This document shows, piece after piece, positions 26,841 through 56,817 of a DNA stretch of 64,000 nucleotides. This DNA is from Methanofollis sp. W23. Lineage in GTDB: Archaea; Halobacteriota; Methanomicrobia; Methanomicrobiales; Methanofollaceae. The stretch lies in NCBI RefSeq assembly GCF_017875325.1, contig NZ_JAGGMN010000001.1, positions 2,686,140-2,750,139 on the forward strand, in the 5' to 3' direction. Position 1 is the first letter of the stretch; each line of letters opens with the position of its first letter. The translations under genes were made by a program, and so were the position numbers. The notes below the pieces were generated by a model. It had not been told where the DNA came from. It ran no database searches and saw nothing but the letters and a program-made list of their open reading frames with translations.

Positions 26841-26975
26841 CAAGACGATGGTCGGGCCTCAGGGATTTCGGGATATGCTCAGGATATATATGGATGCGCT
26901 CCGGTACGTGTTCATTCGTTCTTGCAGAGATGGGAAGAATCCTCAGCATTGGCTGGAAGAAATAGTGTTCAAAAG

Positions 26976-27050
26976 TAGCGAAGGATGGATTTGAACCATC
27001 GGTCTACGGGTTATGGGCCCGTCGGGATTTCCTGACTACCCCACCTCGCT
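26976..27050 (-). tRNA. Initiator tRNA-Met (CAU), copy 1, C33
   Basis: A 75-nt cloverleaf with acceptor AGCGAGG paired to the 3' strand CTTCGCT and A73; CCA is not encoded. A1:U72 and the three G:C pairs at the bottom of the anticodon stem (ACGGG/CCCGT) are initiator hallmarks. The anticodon loop is CCCATAA: anticodon CAT, but position 33 is C instead of the usual U. G6 pairs with U67. Confidence 0.94.
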
Positions 27051-27099
27051 ATCCTGTGCAAAATCAATTTTTCTTGTGAGATCTTTCTTATGAGATCAG

Positions 27100-27174
27100 T
27101 AGCGAAGGATGGATTTGAACCATCGGTCTACGGGTTATGGGCCCGTCGGGATTTCCTGACTACCCCACCTCGCT
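27100..27174 (-). tRNA. Initiator tRNA-Met (CAU), copy 2, C33
   Basis: Same 75-nt sequence as copy 1, including the loop CCCATAA with C33 and the G6:U67 wobble. The spacer to copy 3 closely matches the spacer to copy 1, so these are recent tandem duplicates of a 124-bp unit. Confidence 0.94.
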
Positions 27175-27223
27175 ATCCTGTATAAAATCAATTTTTCTTG
27201 TGAGATTTTTCTTATGGGACCAG

Positions 27224-27298
27224 TAGCGAAGGATGGATTTGAACCATCGGTCTACGGGTTATGGGCCCGTCGGGATTTCCTGACTACCCCACCTCGCT
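27224..27298 (-). tRNA. Initiator tRNA-Met (CAU), copy 3, C33
   Basis: Same as copies 1 and 2, with anticodon loop CCCATAA (C33), A1:U72, three G:C pairs in the anticodon stem and G6:U67. Confidence 0.94.
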
Positions 27299-27333
27299 AT
27301 CTGTGCAGAATAAACTTTTCTTATAGAGAAAAG

Positions 27334-27408
27334 TAGCGAGGGATGGATTTGAACCATCGGTCTACGGGTTATGAGCCCGTCGGGATTTCCTGACTACCCC
27401 ACCTCGCT
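27334..27408 (-). tRNA. Initiator tRNA-Met (CAU), copy 4, canonical U33
   Basis: The promoter-proximal copy. It differs from the others by having the canonical loop CTCATAA (U33) and a Watson-Crick G6:C67 pair ('tagcgaggg' on the + strand). A1:U72 and the three G:C anticodon-stem pairs are kept. Confidence 0.95.
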
Positions 27409-27437: not shown

Positions 27438-27451
27438 TCTATATATATTTT
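27438..27451. promoter_or_regulatory. TATA box between tRNA-Met array and thioredoxin gene
   Basis: 'tctatatatatttt' is symmetric. It lies about 32 bp upstream of the first tRNA (5' end 27408) and about 29 bp upstream of ATG 27479, so it can serve both directions. Confidence 0.55.
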
Positions 27452-27478
27452 TCTGGCTCGCCCTGAGGCAGATAGATT

Positions 27479-56241: not shown

Positions 56242-56248
56242 TTGGGTG

Positions 56249-56367
56249 ATAGCGGCCATAGCAACAGGGAAACACCTGGACTCTTTCCGAACCCAGAAGT
56301 TAAGCCTGTTCACGTATTGCCTTGTACTGAGTTGCGCGAGCACTTGGGAACGGTAATGCGCTGCTAT
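56249..56367 (+). rRNA. 5S ribosomal RNA, copy 1
   Basis: A 119-nt 5S with 'atagcggccatagc' at the start and 'gcgctgctat' at the end closing helix I. The conserved 'ccgaacccagaagttaagcc' loop lies near 56298. It differs from copy 2 at one base, 'ggtaatgcg' versus 'ggtagtgcg'. Confidence 0.96.
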
Positions 56368-56698
56368 CCCCTTCCTTATAATTAGACTGTTCTTATATGC
56401 ATTGTTTAGGAGATTGTTTCCTGCATGTGTACAGGACTTGTTATCTTCAGCATCATCATTGTGTATTTCTTATTCTATAACATGGACTTACCTGGGATTA
56501 TCCAATAGGAAGATCTATCAATCCAGTGTTCAGTTGCCATTAGTGTTCGATCCTATGTACTTCTTCCAACAATTGATCCCAGGACTTTAGAATTTCGATC
56601 GATTATTGTCTCTCAAGTATTTCCCTGTCCTATCCTCTGGTCTTATGTGCATATCCTTATATCGTATTAGGACCGATTAGTACAATGTATAGCGGCCA
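56368..56698. other. Intergenic spacer between the 5S copies
   Basis: A/T-rich spacer without a supported gene. A short open frame at 56402-56590 has no family features. Near the end, 'gtgcatatccttatatcgta' (56646-56665) is a promoter-like copy of the box before tRNA-Cys. Confidence 0.5.
56646..56670 (+). promoter_or_regulatory. Promoter-like box upstream of 5S copy 2
   Basis: TATA-like 'tccttatatc' at 56654-56663, 36-45 bp before the second 5S; the flanks match the box before tRNA-Cys. Confidence 0.55.
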
Positions 56699-56817
56699 TA
56701 GCAACAGGGAAACACCTGGACTCTTTCCGAACCCAGAAGTTAAGCCTGTTCACGTATTGCCTTGTACTGAGTTGCGCGAGCACTTGGGAACGGTAGTGCG
56801 CTGCTATATTCTTCCTG
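56699..56817 (+). rRNA. 5S ribosomal RNA, copy 2
   Basis: A 119-nt copy almost identical to 5S copy 1, 331 bp downstream and with its own promoter-like box. No tRNA-Cys accompanies it, so it probably arose by duplication of the promoter and 5S. Confidence 0.95.

Follow-up and report, generated by a model that had tools for sequence, protein, structure and literature searches.

Four tandem initiator tRNA-Met genes in Methanofollis sp. W23, three of them carrying C33

The initiator tRNA array and its promoter

The window analysed here, 64,000 nucleotides of Methanofollis sp. W23, lies within a contig of 2.87 Mb. The genome (hereafter G000) measures 2.9 Mb, is assembled in 2 contigs and is 99.7% complete. 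ARAGORN and the Rfam model RF00005 both identified four tRNA-Met(CAU) genes, arranged in tandem on the minus strand, with RF00005 scores of 57.4 bits for each of copies 1 to 3 and 64.6 bits for copy 4 (gathering score 29). Following the minus strand, the features of the locus are:

27440..27455, minus strand: CAGAAAAATATATATA, a BRE/TATA-like promoter element before copy 4; the site starts at -47
27334..27408, minus strand: copy 4, promoter-proximal, canonical initiator tRNA-Met with U33 (base 27374) and G6:C67 (base 27340)
27299..27333, minus strand: 35-nt spacer between copies 4 and 3, starting with CTTTTC (a short T run) and ending with the GCACAGAT leader
27224..27298, minus strand: copy 3, initiator tRNA-Met variant with C33 (base 27264) and G6:U67 (base 27230)
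27175..27223, minus strand: 49-nt spacer between copies 3 and 2, without a T run after copy 3 and without a well-placed promoter
27100..27174, minus strand: copy 2, same sequence as copy 3, with C33 (27140) and G6:U67 (27106)
27051..27099, minus strand: 49-nt spacer between copies 2 and 1, 44/49 identical to the spacer between copies 3 and 2
26976..27050, minus strand: copy 1, last of the array, same sequence as copy 3, with C33 (27016) and G6:U67 (26982)
26964..26975, minus strand: CTTTTGAACACT, a short T run past the last copy and possible transcript end

Read from the sequence, all four copies carry A73 together with the full set of hallmarks of archaeal initiator tRNA-Met, namely A1:U72, a GGG:CCC anticodon stem (G29-31:C39-41) and the anticodon CAU. 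The preliminary description of this DNA had proposed four such genes, with U33 confined to the promoter-proximal copy and C33 with G6:U67 in the other three, and was borne out on both points. Copies 1 to 3 show 0/75 nt differences among themselves and differ from copy 4 only at Sprinzl position 33, where C replaces U, and position 67, where a change from C to U produces G6:U67. The U33 and C33 forms both fold as cloverleaves (-29.0 and -26.3 kcal/mol, respectively), the T loop of the array copies is TTCAAAT (UUCAAAU), with U54, and CCA is not encoded. Start-to-start distances are 124, 124 and 110 nt. The copies had also been described as tandem duplicates with matching spacers: this holds for the C33 copies, with bodies identical over 75 nt and 49-nt spacers matching at 44/49 positions, but not for the spacer between copies 4 and 3, which is different and shorter (35 nt).

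Promoters were sought with a BRE/TATA motif trained on the regions upstream of 42 other tRNA genes, where its sites lie mostly at -39 to -53 (range -70 to -25). The single typical, well-placed element of the array is the one before copy 4. Upstream of copies 1 and 2 the motif scored no better than in shuffles, and the region before copy 3 gave an ambiguous promoter-like hit at -41 (score 8.4), which overlaps the copy 4 end. Despite the TTTT run directly after copy 4, read-through from this copy would be the simplest route to expressing copies 3 to 1. Copies 3, 2 and 1 would then be transcribed at least partly from the copy 4 promoter, and RNase P and RNase Z would cut the individual tRNAs out of the shared precursor.

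The ORFs neighbouring the array are presumably purF/amidophosphoribosyltransferase-like, SepF-like, thioredoxin-like and helicase-like. An origin from a mobile element or phage was rejected given these housekeeping-type neighbours and the position of the initiator gene near purF in the complete relatives checked. Elsewhere in the window, we observed two 5S rRNA genes (56248-56369 and 56688-56809, 440 nt start to start), both at the end of one rRNA operon ordered 16S, tRNA-Ala, 23S, tRNA-Cys, 5S, 5S.

Duplication and conservation within Methanofollis

Initiator gene copies in twelve Methanofollis genomes number one or two, with four in G000 only. Among 232 Methanomicrobiales genomes, G000 alone has more than two initiator matches, four being the maximum. 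Whereas the order has one or two copies, four thus stand here in tandem, copies 1 to 3 with C33 and G6:U67; copy 4 is 100% identical to an initiator gene of many other Methanomicrobiales.

In a purF tree, G000 pairs with G091, its nearest sequenced relative, and G085 pairs with G088. A downstream duplicate with G6:U67 (paralogue B) is common to these four Methanofollis genomes, and its position 33 is C in G000, G088 and G091 and U in G085. G088 carries one C33+U67 copy downstream of the U33 copy at the same locus, G085 a U33+U67 copy, and G091 at least two tandem C33+U67 copies, its contig breaking off within the array, as contigs tend to do at repeats. In the last array copy of G091 (L236, contig C321, 3568-3643, minus strand), A37 is replaced by G37; this change would preclude the usual modification to t6A37 and suggests that single array members can decay. 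In a further Methanofollis genome, G093 (L042, 1221-1295), a separate C33 initiator, which has C67 and a TATA element of its own, stands upstream, and a U33 copy starts 371 nt downstream. We regard this C33 as independent in origin of that in paralogue B.

The succession of events would be as follows. In the ancestor of the four-species Methanofollis clade, tandem duplication turned one initiator tRNA gene into two; the downstream duplicate gained G6:U67, probably once and in that same ancestor, plus C33 in three of the four species; in the G000 lineage it was amplified to three copies via duplication of a 124-nt unit. For C33 in paralogue B, either a single gain followed by loss in G085 or two separate gains would account for the distribution. 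Since paralogue B of G085 has U33, the C at this position is not itself a requirement.

Assemblies are known to go wrong at near-identical repeats such as these 124-nt units, and the exact copy number was read from the assembly alone; the array could in principle come from a repeat collapsed or falsely expanded. However, its spacers differ from each other (5/49 bases), G000 is assembled in 2 contigs at 99.7% completeness, and the same paralogue was found independently in G091 and G088. The collapsed or misassembled array for which the preliminary description had allowed is contradicted by the diverged spacers and by the tandem C33/U67 copies of G091; we rejected an assembly artefact and give it virtually no probability.

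The bodies of the three C33 copies show 0/75 differences compared with 5/49 in their spacers (Fisher P=0.008). Identity between species is 96-99% for paralogue B and 97-100% for paralogue A, compared with 47-66% in the spacers and 35-53% in the downstream flanks. The C33 copy is thus probably a working initiator gene under selection, because its body is conserved between species while spacers and flanks diverge. Body identity alone could also reflect gene conversion and does not separate the two. Some homogenisation does occur, as one D-loop base is common to every copy in a given genome (GGAA in G000, GGAG in G085 and G088); wholesale conversion is disfavoured, as it would have erased the 33/67 differences between copy 4 and the rest. 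A tRNA pseudogene was rejected: all stems pair, scores exceed gathering, and the paralogue B gene is 96-99% identical compared with 35-66% for spacers and flanks.

Another possibility is that redundancy with the U33 copy relaxed constraint, so that C33 and U67 drifted in; the extra copies would then see little use or be in decay, and would not be kept for their dosage. Accordingly, both C33 origins in the genus (paralogue B of G000, G088 and G091; the upstream copy of G093) lie in duplicated genes, a U33 copy is present in G000, G088 and G093, G37 occurs in the last G091 copy, and other Methanofollis manage with one copy. On the other hand, the two paralogues are conserved to about the same degree despite the divergence of the spacers, and C33 alone is sufficient in many genomes (see below). 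Moreover, the variant was multiplied and not lost, as had been stated at the outset: the C33 copy is present three times, with bodies identical while spacers diverged. Such neutral drift is unlikely in our estimation, though it deserves some weight.

C33 in other initiators and other tRNAs

G000 holds 46 tRNA genes, and all the others that were read carry U33 except tRNA-Gln(CTG). The latter, a sole copy located outside the window (G000:C1:2226967-2227039; L226, 168-241), has C33 in the loop CCCTGGA; the same tRNA has U33 in every other Methanomicrobiales genome matched (about 91). In the Methanomicrobiales sample this C33-bearing elongator is private to G000, and it is arguably more surprising than the C33 initiators. 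Sulfolobales tRNA-Cys (PMC7668247) is another archaeal tRNA with natural C33, but it is an elongator with G27:U43, unlike the Methanofollis initiator.

That a second, unrelated tRNA of the genome has C33 would fit a conversion of C33 to U33 after transcription, as for base 8 in Methanopyrus, the mature tRNA then being canonical; C-to-U tRNA editing exists in archaea (PMC3695527). However, G000 has a single PF00383 deaminase (about 147 aa) where other Methanofollis have one or two, and C33 initiators are widespread in unrelated groups. Editing by an extra deaminase of the PF00383 family was rejected, no extra member of that family being found in G000, and we hold editing in general to be extremely improbable.

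A scan of 85,000 species genomes for the C33 initiator pattern returned at least 118 stretches. Among the matches listed, C33 occurs in Weissella and relatives, Erysipelotrichaceae, Planctomycetota, Patescibacteria, Thermoplasmatota and DPANN archaea. The C33 initiators of Weissella, Leuconostoc, Thermoplasmatota, Phycisphaerales and DPANN archaea have the same loop, CCCAUAA, in a GGG:CCC stem; C33 is usually the sole form there, whereas here it stands beside a U33 copy in one array. We rechecked 27 genomes picked for a C33 initiator, spanning Weissella, Thermoplasmatota, Phycisphaerales and DPANN archaea and including three multi-megabase single-contig records: with a relaxed pattern accepting any base at position 33, 26 of them, among these the three single-contig chromosome records, showed C33 initiators and no others, though an initiator whose T loop is unusual may escape such a pattern. 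Within Thermoplasmatota, C33 is the only form in about 18 of the roughly 89 genomes that gave a credible match, counted after removal of evident chance matches.

In Halobacteriota, the C33 pattern matched only three of 393 genomes, the denominator being all genomes sampled, whether or not they match a U33 initiator. Two of them are Methanofollis; the third, G043, was set aside as a different tRNA, which begins TGCGGTGT and adjoins tRNA-Thr. This genome, of another family, carries an extra bacterial-looking CAU tRNA with C33 (G043:C1 near 886544; L237 1515-1759), perhaps on a mobile element.

Metazoan initiator tRNA has C33, and A54 in the T loop is a eukaryotic initiator feature (PMC9023262). 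The metazoan initiator thus shares C33 with copies 1 to 3 but has A54 where the Methanofollis array has U54; the two C33 initiators are of independent origin. A literature search of incomplete coverage found no prior report of C33 in prokaryotic initiators, and an earlier description is possible.

A C33 initiator is therefore unusual in Halobacteriota but not in prokaryotes at large. U33 had been presented as nearly invariant in tRNAs and C33 as known from vertebrates; C33 is rare in this genome, but for initiators the statement was too strong, C33 being present in many bacterial and archaeal groups. The C33 copies are not a new kind of tRNA and are locally unusual in their copy number and in the mix of U33 and C33.

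Initiator dosage and tolerance of C33

With aIF2, initiators go directly to the P site of the ribosome and bypass A-site selection. All copies of the array keep the initiator features A1:U72, GGG:CCC, CAU and A73; with these they should be substrates for MetRS and aIF2 and reach the P site. The conserved gene body speaks, indirectly, for expression and charging with Met. C33 is expected to be tolerated because initiators skip A-site selection, the step at which the U-turn made by U33 would matter most. Tolerance as such is shown by the genomes in which C33 appears as the sole form, with P-site entry as its presumable reason. The extra copies would most simply mean more initiator tRNA, and the array most likely raises initiator dosage; such an effect is plausible since four copies are the maximum in the order. 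Taken as a whole, a tandem duplication that raised initiator dosage, with C33 tolerated through P-site entry and the array conserved and functional, is the reading we consider likely.

The C33 copies could instead be a specialised isoform that initiates differently, for example at leaderless or non-AUG starts, and is kept beside U33 for regulation. The 33/67 differences do persist in G000 and G088 despite some homogenisation, seen in the shared D-loop base. However, species of the same genus live with U33 only, paralogue B of G085 has U33, sole-C33 genomes manage without U33, and the promoter scan gave no separate signal that would make differential control likely. We find such specialisation improbable, and grant as little to a two-isoform system in which U33 and C33 initiators would differ in start-codon or leader selectivity, C33 having been amplified to shift the initiation balance. 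The preliminary description had offered a functional isoform or a dosage effect. The C33 copies do appear functional, by conservation of their bodies and by the prokaryotes with C33 alone, and dosage is plausible; a distinct isoform role is without positive evidence.

Methanofollis offers a natural experiment on the need for U33 in initiators: one genus comprises U33-only species and species carrying both forms, and other phyla hold organisms living on a C33 initiator alone. The survey beyond the genus suggests that initiator tRNAs of both bacteria and archaea can do without U33, in keeping with the view that A-site selection is the main step at which the U-turn is enforced.
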